Made by a program: the position numbers and the translations under genes. From NCBI RefSeq assembly GCF_000789235.1, contig NZ_KN525716.1, positions 1,527,674-1,591,673 of the forward strand: a stretch of DNA of 64,000 bases, read 5' to 3'. Below the pieces are notes generated by a model. It did not search any database, was not told the DNA's origin, and worked only from the letters and a program-made list of their open reading frames with translations. Every line of letters starts with the position of its first letter. The stretch's first letter is position 1. Positions 2,377-46,186 of this stretch are shown one piece after another. The DNA comes from Wocania ichthyoenteri Th78. GTDB taxonomy: Bacteria; Bacteroidota; Bacteroidia; Flavobacteriales; Flavobacteriaceae.

Positions 2377-5300
2377 CTACCCAACAATATTAACAATTTT
2401 ACCAGGGACTACAATTACTTTTTTAGGCGTTCTGCCTGCTAATTGTTCTTGCGTTTTTTCGTTTGCTAAAACTGCCTTTTCAATATCGTCCTTACTCATA
2501 TCCAATGGTAATTCCATAGTAAAACGCATTTTACCATTAAACGAGATGGGGTAATTCTTGCTACTTTCCACTAAATGACTCGCATCAAACTCAGGGAATG
2601 GCGCTGTTGAAATAGATTCGTTATGCCCTAATTGACTCCATAGTTCTTCAGCAATATGTGGTGCATAAGGTGAAATTAAAACCAAAAGGGGTTCTAAAAT
2701 TTCTTTACTTGTACATTTTTGAGAAGTTAACTCATTAGCAGCAATCATAAATGTTGAAACCGAAGTGTTAAACGAAAAACTTTCAATATCTTCTTGAACC
2801 TTTTTAATGGTTTTATGTAGTGTTTTTAAACTGTCTTTTGTTGGTGCAGCATCAGTAACTTTAAGTCCGTTATCATCGGCATACAACTTCCATAGTTTTT
2901 TAAGGAATGAATGTACACCAGTAATGCCAGCTGTATTCCAAGGTTTGTATTGTTCTAAAGGACCTAGGAACATTTCATAAAGGCGTAAACTGTCTGCACC
3001 GTAATCTGAAACAATGTTATCGGGATTAACAACGTTGTATTTAGATTTAGACATTTTTTCGACTTCGCGACCTACTTTATAAACATCGTTATTTTCTTCA
3101 ATGATCTCTCCTTTCTCTCCGATAAAAATGGCCTCTTTGTATTCACTTCTCCAATTTTTGAATGCTTCTATATCTAATTCATCTGAAGCGTTTACATAAG
3201 AAACATCGGTATGAATTTTAAGTTCAAGTAAACTTATATCACTTACCTCTATTTTATCAATTTCTTTGCTAAGGTTTTTATCATTTATATTTGCCTTAAT
3301 TTCTTCTTTTATAAAATCTAAATTATTTTCAAAAATAGGATTAACAATTTCTCTGATTTTTTTATCAATAAGGAGTCTTGATTTAGGATTAATATACTCA
3401 AAGGACAAGAAAATATGAGGTAGTTCTTCTTTTAAACTACTACTAGTTATTTTTAACTTTTTAACTTCATAAAAGGGTGTCAAGAAATAAACAAAAGCAC
3501 TAGTCCCCAAAATCATCCCTTGGTTTATCAGCTTTTTAGCAAACTCATCATGGTTAACATAGCCTTTATCGAACATAAACTTTTGCCAAAAACGCGAGTA
3601 TAACAAATGTCCTGTAGCATGTTCGCTTCCACCAATGTATAAATCTACTTGTTGCCAATAATCCATCGCTTCTTTTGAGAAGATTTCGTTATCATTATTG
3701 GGGTCCATATAACGATTAAAATACTGCGAACTTCCTGCCCACCCAGGCATTGTGTTTAACTCAAGAGCCCCACCTAACCTCCCCGAAGGGGAGGAATTTT
3801 CAAACGCTTCTTTCGAAACTATTTCTGCTTTATCACCGTACTGTAACCAATGCCATTTTTTTGCGTTACCCAAAGGCGGTTCACCGGTTTCTGTTGGTAA
3901 ATATTTATCTACTTCTGGTAACTCTAATGGTAAAAATTGCTCATCTATCATTTGAGGCATTCCATTTTCATCATAATAAACTGGAAATGGTTCTCCCCAA
4001 TAACGCTGACGAGAAAACACCGCATCGCGCAAACGGTAATTGGTTTTTCCTTCACCTTGACCAATCTGCTCCAATTCGTAAATAGCTCGTTTGGTTGCTT
4101 TTTTATAATTCATGCCGTTTAGGAAATCACTATTTCCAATTACGGTTTTTTCTTTATCTGAAAAGGCTTCTTCTGAAATATCAACCCCTTCAAAAATATT
4201 AGGAATTGGTATATTAAAATGTTTTGCAAAGGCATAATCGCGTTCATCGCCACAGGGCACAGACATGACTGCTCCTGTTCCATAGCCCGCTAAAACGTAA
4301 TCGCCAATCCAAACCGGAATCGGTTCTTTTGTAAACGGATGCTCTGCATAAGCGCCTGTAAATACGCCTGAAATGGTTTTTACATCTGCCATTCTATCAC
4401 GTTCACTTCGCTTTGCGGTTGCTAAAACATAAGCTTCAACTTCAGCTTTTTGTTCTGGAGTTGTTATTTGAGATACGAGTTCGTGTTCTGGGGCGAGTGT
4501 CATAAAACTAACCCCGAAAATGGTATCGGGTCTTGTTGTAAAGACATCTATTTTGTGAGACCCTTCGACTGCGCTCAGGGTGACATTCTCGTTTTCTGAA
4601 TTGGCAGATTGCTTCGCTTCGCTCGCAATGACATTGAACGATACACTTGCACCAACAGATTTTCCAATCCAGTTACGCTGACTTTCTTTTAAAGAATCCG
4701 TCCAATCAATTTTTTCTAAACCTTGAAGCAAACGTTCTGCATAAGCAGAAATTCGCATACTCCATTGCGTCATTTTCTTTCTAATTACTGGATGGCCACC
4801 ACGTTCTGAAACCCCATTTACAATTTCATCATTTGCTAAAACGGTTCCTAATGCTGGACACCAGTTTACTTCGGTTTCAGCTAAATAAGTTAATCTATAT
4901 TGTAATAATATTTGTTGTTGTTTTGTAGAATCAAAGGCGTTCCAATCTTCAGCAGAAAATGGTTCAATGTTATCATCGCAAACGGCATTGACGTTTCCAT
5001 TTCCATCTGAAGCAAACAGTTTTTCTAATTCTGAAATGTCTTCAGCTTTATCCGCATCATTATTATACCAAGAATTGAACAATTGGATAAAAATCCATTG
5101 CGTCCATTTGTAATAATTGGGATCGGATGTTCTAACCTCACGCGACCAATCAAAAGAAAACCCAATTTGATCTAATTGACGACGATAGGTTTTTATATTT
5201 TCGGCAGTCGTAATTGCTGGATGCTGCCCTGTTTGAATGGCATATTGTTCTGCAGGTAACCCAAAGCTATCATAACCTTGAGGATGCAATACATTAAACC

Positions 5301-5505
5301 CTTGATGACGCTTGTAACGCGCATAAATATCTGAAGCAATATAACCCAACGGATGCCCAACGTGTAAGCCCGCACCACTTGGATAAGGGAACATATCCAA
5401 AACATAATATTTTGGTTTATCACTACCATTTACGGCTTTGAACGTTTGATTATCTGCCCAATACTTTTGCCATTTGGCTTCAATTTCATTGAAATTGTAT
5501 TTCAT
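2377..5505 (-). CDS. leuS: Leucyl-tRNA synthetase with extra internal segments
   Basis: A class I aminoacyl-tRNA synthetase charging tRNA-Leu in the cytoplasm. The HIGH-type motif HVGH is at residues 48-51, the CP1 editing-domain motif TTRPDTIFG near 323, and KMSKS at 817-821. At 1042 residues it is about 100 longer than I expect for a flavobacterial LeuS. Three places account for this: residues 291-316 just before the editing motif, encoded by two dispersed repeats (4561-4632); residues about 566-580, encoded by a third repeat (3765-3801); and a lysine-rich stretch at about 674-755 replacing a short loop before KMSKS. All are in frame and the catalytic motifs remain, so the enzyme is probably functional. 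An alternative reading, a damaged gene, is unlikely because leuS is essential and no second copy is seen here. Confidence 0.97.
3765..3801. repeat. GC-rich palindromic repeat inside leuS (family E)
   Basis: The core is a perfect 7-base stem, CCTCCCC-GAA-GGGGAGG (3778-3794), with a flank CCCCACCTAA. It is far more GC-rich than its surroundings and is read in frame by leuS as [12 protein letters not shown], immediately before the conserved [10 protein letters not shown] motif. Confidence 0.7.
4561..4632. repeat. Composite palindromic repeat inside leuS (families B and A)
   Basis: Bases 4561-4585 carry family B (CTTCGACTGCGCTCAGGGTG) and 4607-4632 carry family A, whose ends GATTGC and GCAATGAC form an inverted repeat. 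A spacer of about 21 bases separates them. On the minus strand leuS reads them as IASEAKQS and LSAVEG. Family A recurs at 19359-19394 and 40600-40630; family B recurs in truB at 9241-9262 and at 40416-40437. Confidence 0.8.
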
Positions 5506-8732: not shown

Positions 8733-9449
8733 ATGATTTTGAAAGAAGAATATCTTTCCGGGCAAGTTTTACTGATGGACAAACCGCTAAATTGGACATC
8801 TTTTCAAGTCGTTAATAAATTACGTTGGGAAATCCGTCAAGCTTTTAATATTAAGAAAATAAAAGTAGGTCACGCTGGTACTTTAGATCCTTTAGCTACT
8901 GGTTTATTAGTGATTTGTACTGGGAAAATGACTAAGCAAATTGACACCTTTCAGGGTCAAATAAAAGAATACACAGGCACTTTTACTTTAGGAAGCACAA
9001 CGCCTTCTTTTGATTTAGAAACCGAAGTAAATGAGACTTTTCCAACTGAACATATTACACCAGATTTAATACACGAAGCTACTAAACAGTTTATTGGTGA
9101 GATTCAACAACATCCTCCTATATTTTCAGCATTAAAAAAAGACGGAAAACGTTTATACGAATTTGCAAGAGCAGGAGAATCTGTAGAAATTAAACCGAGA
9201 ACAGTAAACATTCAAGAATTTGAAATTACTAAAATTGATACTTCGACTGCGCTCAGTACAGGCTCAATAAATATTAACTTTAGAGTGGTTTGTAGCAAAG
9301 GCACTTACATTCGTTCTTTAGCTAACGATTTTGGAAACGCCCTCAAGTCTGGCGCACATTTATCTGCTTTAAGACGCACCAAGATTGGAGATTTTAATGT
9401 AGCCAATGCTATTTCAATTGAAACCTTCATTGCATCGCTAAAAGGCTAA
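8733..9449 (+). CDS. truB: tRNA pseudouridine-55 synthase with a repeat-encoded insert
   Basis: The 238-residue enzyme isomerises uridine 55 in the T loop of tRNAs. The catalytic motif HAGTLDPLATGLL holds the nucleophilic Asp near residue 52, and the later GTYIRSLANDFG motif is present. The start codon lies one base after the uppP stop. Residues about 169-179 (DTSTALSTGS) are encoded by a family B repeat (9241-9262) and split a region that is normally a loop between KI and the strand INFRVVCSKGTYIR. The reading frame is intact. This is a second conserved gene in the window that has absorbed one of these repeats. Confidence 0.95.
   Translation: MILKEEYLSGQVLLMDKPLNWTSFQVVNKLRWEIRQAFNIKKIKVGHAGTLDPLATGLLVICTGKMTKQIDTFQGQIKEYTGTFTLGSTTPSFDLETEVNETFPTEHITPDLIHEATKQFIGEIQQHPPIFSALKKDGKRLYEFARAGESVEIKPRTVNIQEFEITKIDTSTALSTGSININFRVVCSKGTYIRSLANDFGNALKSGAHLSALRRTKIGDFNVANAISIETFIASLKG
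9241..9262. repeat. Family B repeat inside truB
   Basis: CTTCGACTGCGCTCAGTACA matches the family B core seen in leuS at 4561-4585 for the first 16 bases. Relative to gene direction it is inserted in the opposite orientation and is read as TSTALST, so both strands of the element can be translated without a stop. Confidence 0.75.
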
Positions 9450-19358: not shown

Positions 19359-19394
19359 GATTGCTACGTCGTTAAAAAACTCCTCGCAATGACG
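19359..19394. repeat. Family A palindromic repeat between riboswitch and start codon
   Basis: The element runs from GATTGCTACG to CTCGCAATGACG, so its ends form ATTGC/GCAAT. It lies in the 5' leader of the receptor gene, 80 bases before its start codon, and is related to copies in leuS (4607-4632) and at 40600-40630. Confidence 0.7.
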
Positions 19395-19404
19395 GTAAAA
19401 ATTC

Positions 19405-19485
19405 AATTTCCTAAACAGCATTACCTGTTCTAGGTTCAATGGGTATGATCTCAGCCAATAATAGGCACCCCTTTTTTGAGAACGC
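19405..19485 (-). promoter_or_regulatory. TPP riboswitch (THI element)
   Basis: Read on the minus strand the segment has, in order, GGGGTGCC, GGCTGAGATCATACCC, TTGAACCTAGAACAGGTAATGC and TAGGAAA. These are the conserved blocks of the thiamine pyrophosphate aptamer: the P2/P3 pieces with CUGAGA, and the P4/P5 pieces with ACCU...GGxUAAUGC and the AGGxA block. Pairing of GGGT with ACCC closes P2. The outer P1 helix is AT-rich and weak. It precedes the TonB-dependent receptor; an obvious terminator or anti-terminator is not clear, and the repeat after it lies where an expression platform would be. Confidence 0.93.
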
Positions 19486-25886: not shown

Positions 25887-25917
25887 AAATCCCAAGCAGC
25901 AATGTTTGGGATTTTTT
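25887..25917 (+). terminator. Intrinsic terminator after ahcY
   Basis: AAATCCCAA and TTTGGGATTT flank a 9-base loop and lead into a T-rich tract. A second small hairpin (ATTCCTTT/AAAGGAAT) lies just before it. Confidence 0.75.
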
Positions 25918-25920
25918 CTT

Positions 25921-26004
25921 GGGCGTTACCACAAGGGTCGGGCTTTCACTACTCGCTCCCTCCTGTGTCGGGGAGCTCAAACAGACCGTTCAATCCCTAG
26001 CACG
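25921..26004 (+). repeat. Family C dispersed repeat, copy 1
   Basis: An 84-base GC-rich element beginning GGGCGTTACCACAAGGGTCG and ending near ATCCCTAGCACG. It is very similar along its length to the copy at 37111-37196 and in part to 40639-40673. The ends GGCGTTA and the TTACGC of copy 2 suggest imperfect inverted termini. No protein is supported. Confidence 0.8.
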
Positions 26005-37039: not shown

Positions 37040-37110
37040 GCTTTATATGCCATTACGAAAGCTTTAGGTTGTGACAATCTCATTCTAATAACAAGGTTTA
37101 ATTATTATTT

Positions 37111-37196
37111 AGGCGTTACCTAAATAGGTCGGGCTTTCACTACTCGCTTCCTCCTATCGTCGGCGAGCTCAAACATGCCGTTCTATCCCTTACGCG
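37111..37196 (+). repeat. Family C dispersed repeat, copy 2
   Basis: It starts AGGCGTTACCTAAATAGGTC and ends near ATCCCTTACGCG. It is collinear with copy 1 (25921-26004) including TCGGGCTTTCACTACTCGCT and GAGCTCAAACA. It lies between rng and the restriction-modification genes; the rest of this 316-base gap holds the rng terminator and the methyltransferase promoter. Confidence 0.8.
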
Positions 37197-40403: not shown

Positions 40404-40452
40404 GATTCCTGCCTGTACTTCGACTTCACTCAGTATAAACTCTGGAATGACA
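40404..40452. repeat. Family F repeat interrupted by a family B repeat
   Basis: GATTCCTGCC (40404-40413) and TGGAATGACA (40443-40452) are the two ends of a family F hairpin. Between them lies ACTTCGACTTCACTCAGTAT, a family B element like those in leuS and truB. Confidence 0.65.
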
Positions 40453-40485: not shown

Positions 40486-40526
40486 AAAAAACCTTTAAAA
40501 GCTATTAAGGGTTTTAAAGGTTTTTT
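40486..40526. terminator. Bidirectional hairpin downstream of the OmpA lipoprotein gene
   Basis: AAAAACCTTTAAAA pairs with TTTTAAAGGTTTTT across a 10-base loop. It has A/T runs at both sides and could end the OmpA transcript from the right, 240 bases after its stop codon. Confidence 0.55.
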
Positions 40527-40599
40527 ATACGTTAGAGATTGCAGCGGCATCCTTTTTTAAAATAAGGAAAATACTTTATTTAAACCTAAACATTTAACA

Positions 40600-40630
40600 G
40601 ATAGCCACGTCCTTCGTCCTCGCTATGACG
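40600..40630. repeat. Family A palindromic repeat
   Basis: It runs from GATAGCCACGTCCTTCGTC to CTCGCTATGACG, with ends ATAGC/GCTAT. It is related to the copies at 4607-4632 and 19359-19394. Confidence 0.6.
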
Positions 40631-40638
40631 TAAAAAAG

Positions 40639-40673
40639 ATACAGCGGAAAGCGCGACCCTTGTGGTAACGCCC
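40639..40673 (-). repeat. Family C dispersed repeat, truncated inverted copy
   Basis: On the minus strand GGGCGTTACCACAAGGGTCG is followed by CGCTTTCCGCT; the rest of the 85-base element is missing. It is inverted relative to copy 2 (37111-37196), so the two face each other across the restriction-modification and aldo/keto reductase genes. Confidence 0.65.
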
Positions 40674-46156: not shown

Positions 46157-46186
46157 GAGATGCTGAATCAAGTTCAGCATGACAAA
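46157..46186. repeat. Family D palindromic repeat
   Basis: TGCTGAA and TTCAGCA (46161-46179) pair around TCAAG, with flanks GAGA and TGACAAA. It is the best preserved relative of the pair at 2292-2371 and lies just after the sdhB stop. Confidence 0.7.

Follow-up and report, generated by a model that had tools for sequence, protein, structure and literature searches.

Short dispersed palindromes with a CGTC or TGTC end, the CGTC-tagged REPs, have been described with Bacteroidetes among their carriers (Di Nocera et al. 2013, PMC3733652); the accessible part of that paper reports copies in frame in tRNA synthetases and in truB of other species, gives the type as having no known transposase, and names the Rickettsia palindromic elements. 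Regarding nucleases, the EDxHD homing endonuclease family (I-Bth0305I) is described in PMC3943268, one DUF559 gene is placed in this family by PMC9403480, and the Caulobacter protein VsrA is a DUF559 protein (PMC12907096), as far as the accessible portions of these three sources go. A literature search at the level of titles and abstract openings, covering few subscription journals, returned no description of in-frame DUF559 elements with bracketing palindromes.

The window analysed in this work, a stretch of 64,000 nucleotides from the genome of Wocania ichthyoenteri Th78, carries the essential gene leuS, in which two repeats, A and B, lie on the coding strand and are translated in frame (Table 1), as the original prediction had stated. 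It had counted two repeats in this gene and overlooked a third translated palindrome, C. The A-derived peptide corresponds to LeuS residues 293-300 (window 4629-4606) and the peptide LSAVEG to residues 310-315 (4578-4561), both ahead of the TTRPDTIFG motif at residue 323, again as predicted. The segment had been placed before the editing domain, whereas it sits inside it, since the Pfam editing-domain match (PF13603) spans residues 277-476. Between the motifs FNV and IDVF, the protein has 26 residues versus 6 in its congeners (e.g., NNHDAV), a gain of 20, and the whole segment measures 54 residues here versus 34 in each of the three congeners that lack the insert (G001-G003). The suggestion that the insert forms a loop on the CP1 editing domain agrees with its position between residues 240 and 241 of Thermus thermophilus LeuRS (1h3n) in the structure-homologue alignment and with an AlphaFold2 model of LeuS (21 sequences, mean pLDDT 74), in which strands 282-293 and 318-323 flank a stretch of pLDDT below 50 (residues 296-315), that is, the tip of a hairpin. 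The translated peptide is probably disordered, and the best reading of the segment is a tolerated editing-domain hairpin loop entered in frame by mobile DNA, with the insert presumably translated and retained in the finished LeuS protein. An Rfam scan over the window leuS gave neither a group I intron nor any other Rfam RNA. Elsewhere in the same protein, a stretch of about 100 residues before KMSKS (residues ~674-770) is highly divergent in two congeners and mostly missing in the third.

Table 1. Coordinates, within the window, of leuS, its insert-receiving loop, and the repeats A, B, and C with their further copies.
Feature	Position	Strand	Evidence or remarks
leuS (LeuS, 1042 aa), host gene	2377..5505	-	ORF; Pfam tRNA-synt_1, tRNA-synt_1_2, Anticodon_1; solved LeuRS homologues
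Repeat C, hairpin AGCCCCACCTAACCTCCCCGAAGGGGAGGAA; its opposite strand encodes LeuS residues 571-580	3766..3796	+	fold z -2.24
CP1 editing-domain hairpin loop receiving inserts; site common to DUF559 elements of relatives	4540..4655	-	
Repeat B, TGTCACCCTGAGCGCAGTCGAAGGGTCTCA, read as (V)TLSAVEGS	4556..4585	-	114 near-matches vs 10 control; identical 31 bp in purL
Repeat A, TGTCATTGCGAGCGAAGCGAAGCAATCT, read as (V)IASEAKQS	4606..4633	-	2 exact-type genome sites; same position in L029, L030, L032, L040
B core inside truB (8733-9449), in frame	9242..9256	+	other exact B core of the window
A-family variant with longer middle (CGTCATTGCGAGGAG...GCAATC)	19370..19410	-	no ORF of at least 60 codons across it
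B-like core, 1 mismatch	40419..40433	+	no long ORF; a 64-codon frame alone covers the site

When compared to the described palindromes, A and B resemble the CGTC REPs in beginning with TGTC on the minus strand, but the published stems measure 8-9 bp and start with A-T, whereas those predicted for A and B are of ~5 bp and their RNA folds no better than shuffles, for which reason we call them CGTC-like and do not file them as members. The CGTC REPs form mostly head-to-head dimers, whereas A and B run in the same direction in leuS, with both TGTC ends toward the upstream side of the gene (head to tail). High copy number is a further mark of these REPs; B has 114 near-matches, and the exact type of A has two sites. 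According to the accessible part of PMC3733652, CGTC REPs take different insertion sites in most genes, while A-type units occupy one codon in five LeuS proteins. The parallel with the Rickettsia palindromic elements, drawn in the original prediction, is sound as a concept, namely that palindromes are translated in frame inside real genes, and in-frame REPs had already been published for other bacteria in the text of PMC3733652 that was accessible; the Rickettsia elements differ in their bacteria and repeat sequences, and the loop studied here also takes a nuclease-coding element.

Across the 3.95-Mb genome, the B core occurs at 114 sites with at most two mismatches versus 10 for the reversed control pattern, and 33 of the listed sites have no mismatch, so B is a dispersed family with other copies, as had been proposed; the exact A type occurs twice, which makes A as written rare, and longer-looped variants exist. 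The original prediction had the repeats recurring in non-coding DNA of the window, and this is borne out by the A variant and by the B-like core, but the other exact B core lies in the frame of truB. Coding context was read for the 30 mismatch-free sites with retrieved DNA and for L001-L008, out of the 114: five of the 30 are in frame in ORFs of at least 240 codons and away from the ORF ends, in leuS, purL (L151), truB (L139), and two genes which we take from their motifs to be prmC-like (L127) and glycosyltransferase-like (L135). B is translated in three frames (TLSAVEG, CHTERSRS, STALS). The prmC-like protein is 8 to 10 residues longer at the insert than its counterparts in three congeners, and solved FGAM synthases align on both sides of the insert in purL. 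The truB copy is unsupported as a clear insertion, with only a 4-residue gap versus solved TruB, and the DAELVSASHK stretch of the prmC-like protein was rejected as an insertion, the segment being equally long or longer in congeners. The window also holds another dispersed repeat, GGCGTTACC...GGTCGGGCTTTCACTACTCGC (25905-25966 and 37095-37157, with a part at 2245-2265), two copies of which are 97% alike over 29 nt, and a Flavo-1 RNA at 40523-40662 (43.5 bits versus a gathering score of 42). That all of this reflects chance resemblance or assembly artefact has next to no chance of being right: one DUF559 copy (L120) is frame-broken in a genome that is 64% complete, and single cases can therefore be poor data, but 114 B sites versus 10 in the control, and uninterrupted long frames in many isolates that bear names, contradict it.

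Among 52 aligned LeuS sequences of the same family, with six further LeuS matches left out of the alignment, 33 have the short, 34-residue form of the segment, one is shorter, and 18 are longer, so that it is not common to all relatives, which would have spoken against a recent insertion. A-type units stand at the identical codon in five of the 52 (the window, L029, L030, L032, and L040), each beginning with GTC directly after TTYAAY, and their presence requires five changes on the LeuS tree for five rows. The same loop holds other repeats in L046 and L052 (EMLKLVQHD and RHSELNSES-like) and a whole DUF559 domain in two of the 52 (L054 and L055), and a second LeuS loop contains repeats in L026, L032, and L040. 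The first loop of L011, L031, and L038 is made of short tandem-like repeats (CAGAGTTCAGAGTTC, CAGAATTCAGAATTC, CAAATTCCAAATTC), and a palindromic repeat of the type translated in LeuS of L046 and L052 also lies in non-coding DNA of the window (GAGATGCTGAATCAAGTTCAGCATGAC, 46157-46183). The LeuS hairpin loop is a recurrent insertion site for small repeats or for a complete DUF559 nuclease, depending on the genus. One explanation would be that the DNA is scattered by another mechanism and that only in-frame insertions into disordered loops survive, in which case loops recur through tolerance and DUF559 is cargo or an otherwise fused domain. The presence of other and simple repeats in this loop (L046, L052, L031, L038) is in keeping with such passive lodging, but the entry of A-type repeats at an identical codon in five lineages is not, and together with the evidence on the nuclease given below it leads us to consider this explanation unlikely.

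DUF559 (PF04480) was matched in 59 of 120 genomes of the family, a count that includes 17 genomes with weak matches (e.g., ORFs of 1379, 1798, and 1931 aa), and was not found in the window's own genome. In the regions examined, in-frame DUF559 domains occur in the first LeuS loop of eight of the 120 genomes (one copy being frame-broken), in RecG of two, one of them in the window's genus, and in MetH of two; terminal joins are found at the C-end of HisD (one), the N-end of HemD (three), and the N-end of a threonine-dehydratase-like protein (one). An alignment of ten in-gene copies, used as the query in a scan of named genomes, yielded at least 558 confirmed relatives. In the best 80 of these loci, 71 domains continue the reading frame of a host gene (62 nested, nine at an end) and nine are unjoined, a proportion that is biased upwards by a query built from in-gene copies and by the choice of the best 80; 28 of the same 80 are in the first LeuS loop. 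Domain models confirm as representative hosts LeuS, ValS, IleS, RecG, MetH (at three sites), a RecB-like helicase, and RecJ, as well as IspF, an RlmB-like protein, LegC/DegT aminotransferases, an AMP-binding protein, MazG, and HisD. For most of the 71 copies, the host was named by hand from clustering or from the neighbouring peptide, representatives having been scanned, and the N-end joins (IspF, RlmB, HemD, dehydratase-like) are stop-to-stop frames whose joint translation is predicted. Two metagenome-assembled genomes labelled outside Bacteroidota (L183, Candidatus Paceibacterota; L223, Limnohabitans) also show in-gene DUF559 in LeuS and RecG, either through transfer or through mis-binned contigs.

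The DUF559 elements measure ~0.4-0.5 kb and keep the reading frame. No Rfam intron covers the inserts of L112, L156, L108, and L106, no intein model appears among the Pfam or NCBIfam matches of 18 scanned fusion proteins, and no extra DNA-binding domain was seen in the elements. They resemble the EDxHD homing endonucleases in a Vsr-like fold match, conserved host genes, and patchy occurrence. In the accessible parts of the published accounts, those enzymes lie in introns or inteins or stand free, whereas the DUF559 domains here come without a splicing element, with palindromes at both element ends and without the additional DNA-binding domain.

These palindromes are hairpins of the type of repeat C. 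With a pyrimidine arm of at least 6, perfectly complementary and within 220 bp, they occur in 106 of the 142 flanks of the 71 in-gene copies versus 2 of 134 control segments (mostly coding, taken from each locus at a distance of 600 bp): upstream of 50 copies, downstream of 56, on both sides of 45, and, by this rule, on neither side of 10, which counts against homing. The nine free copies have them in 16 of 18 flanks versus none of 17 controls, which are mostly coding where intergenic segments would be fairer. For 35 domains of an earlier, overlapping set, the figures were 42 of 70 flanks versus 3 of 68 controls, and the same search in tiled synthetase loci gave 4 of 1203. Most of the 19 loci displayed have a unit at both element ends; the two units face each other and are laid out much as C is in the window. 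Such bracketing points to one transferable unit, which weighs against the passive lodging of a cargo domain.

Repeat C itself occupies the second LeuS loop, 7 residues of which are missing from most relatives, and folds better than shuffles, unlike A and B. With its CCCC..CTAACC..CCC lead, it has one site in the genome, in leuS, and the looser pattern CCYYCCCN{2,6}GGGRRGG has three. Its layout resembles the end repeats of the DUF559 elements; for example, the reversed right end of the recG element of G001, AGCCCCACCAATCTCCCCAGAGGGGAGG, is close to the window C, AGCCCCACCTAACCTCCCCGAAGGGGAGG. The C pattern is present in 24 of 42 genomes with strong DUF559 matches (picked by hand at an E of 1.8e-12 or better) versus 13 of 78 others, with kinship ignored, whereas the reversed pattern is not enriched (6 of 42 versus 8 of 78). 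The copy in the window leuS may be a solo unit or the remnant of a DUF559 element. A and B were rejected as scars of such elements, whose ends are C-type. Because the own genome lacks DUF559 and A and B are not the bracketing repeats, the window is linked to these elements through the shared loop and C only.

The arrangement recalls RAYT, where an enzyme gene is flanked by palindromes that are also found alone, but DUF559, which lies inside host ORFs, is a Vsr-like nuclease and not a Y1 transposase. The window's genome has two PF01797 matches, flanked, as read by eye, by other inverted repeats. These Y1 transposase genes (L074 and L075, contig C1 near 287417 and 3824102) have flanking inverted repeats of their own, and one of them carries two internal stops. 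That a RAYT moves A, B, or C here was rejected, since none of the three was seen at either Y1 locus.

The AlphaFold2 model of DUF559 (pLDDT 83) matched 3hrl in Foldseek (E 1.6e-6), matched the catalytic domain of I-Bth0305I (3r3p) with an E of 2.7e-4 and a TM of 0.73 by target, and had Vsr at rank 13 (E 0.09). The modelled fold is thus homing-endonuclease-like, and such an enzyme might cut the empty allele. Four columns, D, E, D, and H, which we take to correspond to the letters EDxHD, are invariant in 10 of 10 in-gene copies (intact ones, chosen by hand) and also in 65 of 65, that is, the 65 of the 80 nuclease segments used in this second check, where the scan patterns partly impose them. In two LeuS copies (L055 and L114), the second D and the H are changed and palindromes are missing, as expected of old copies.

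Catalytic residues kept in those ten copies, and a domain retained in L055 and L114 after the loss of active-site residues and palindromes, could also be read as domestication, with the DUF559 domains and short inserts serving as functional parts of the host under selection, e.g., in regulation or DNA contact. The hosts are functionally unrelated, and the occurrence is patchy: DUF559 presence requires 15 changes on the LeuS tree, at least 12 of them forced by well-supported branches (85 rows, of which 35 carry DUF559 and were included for that reason). We therefore regard domestication as quite improbable.

Evidence on movement comes from recG, where codons 423 and 569 of the filled gene are contiguous in G000, G002, and G003 and a 145-codon insert lies between them in G001, so that one of four congeneric genomes is filled and three have the empty site. 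Since the blocks are contiguous without the insert, the insertion costs the host at most a few codons whose alignment is uncertain. In a nuclease tree of 96 rows, the host labels need 25 changes versus a mean of 59 when shuffled; nuclease lineages thus mostly keep to one host gene and site, which again disfavours passive lodging, yet some switch: one LeuS copy falls next to the RecB set, copies from MetH sites 1 and 2 intermingle, and IspF groups with RlmB. The nuclease of L166 is 70.5% identical to that of L159 (hosts 66.8%) and 52.9% to that of L221 (hosts 79.4%). The AU tests at leuS did not reject inheritance of the nuclease with its host (p 0.32 and 0.12), a result that passive lodging would accommodate; with these values, a nuclease alignment of 107 columns, and many forks without resolution, transfer between species at leuS is unproven.

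Taken together, the reading that we prefer, with a probability of roughly 0.6, is that tolerated loops are shared by small repeats and by translated elements of the homing type that do not splice. Such loops would take up mobile DNA of two kinds, the small palindromes A, B, and C on the one hand and the DUF559 elements on the other, the latter encoding a putative Vsr-like, EDxHD-type nuclease and ending in C-type palindromes that face each other. The nuclease would cleave another host-gene copy whose site is empty, and the element would be copied into it during repair, with a permissive loop and an open frame taking the place of the intron or intein in which homing endonucleases are normally concealed. 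The wider proposal, which we advance tentatively and at a little under even odds, is that Bacteroidota harbour homing elements without splicing, in which a Vsr-like nuclease, set between two palindromes that face each other, invades permissive loops in essential enzymes (LeuS, ValS, IleS, RecG, MetH, RecJ, and others), becomes a translated domain of the host protein, cuts empty alleles, sometimes jumps to another gene, and then decays; end repeats that stand alone, as C does in the window leuS, would be its non-autonomous form.

On the usual view, homing endonucleases persist in essential genes because they are taken out of the product along with an intron or intein, whereas the DUF559 nuclease seems to survive as a harmless loop of the finished protein. 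If true, these elements would offer a testable origin for nested domains and would account for the DUF559 parts of annotated synthetases and helicases. They would also supply a candidate enzyme for one class of palindromic repeats, though not for A and B; for these, the leuS loop, in which five lineages have an A-type unit at one and the same codon, is a promising place to look for the insertion mechanism.
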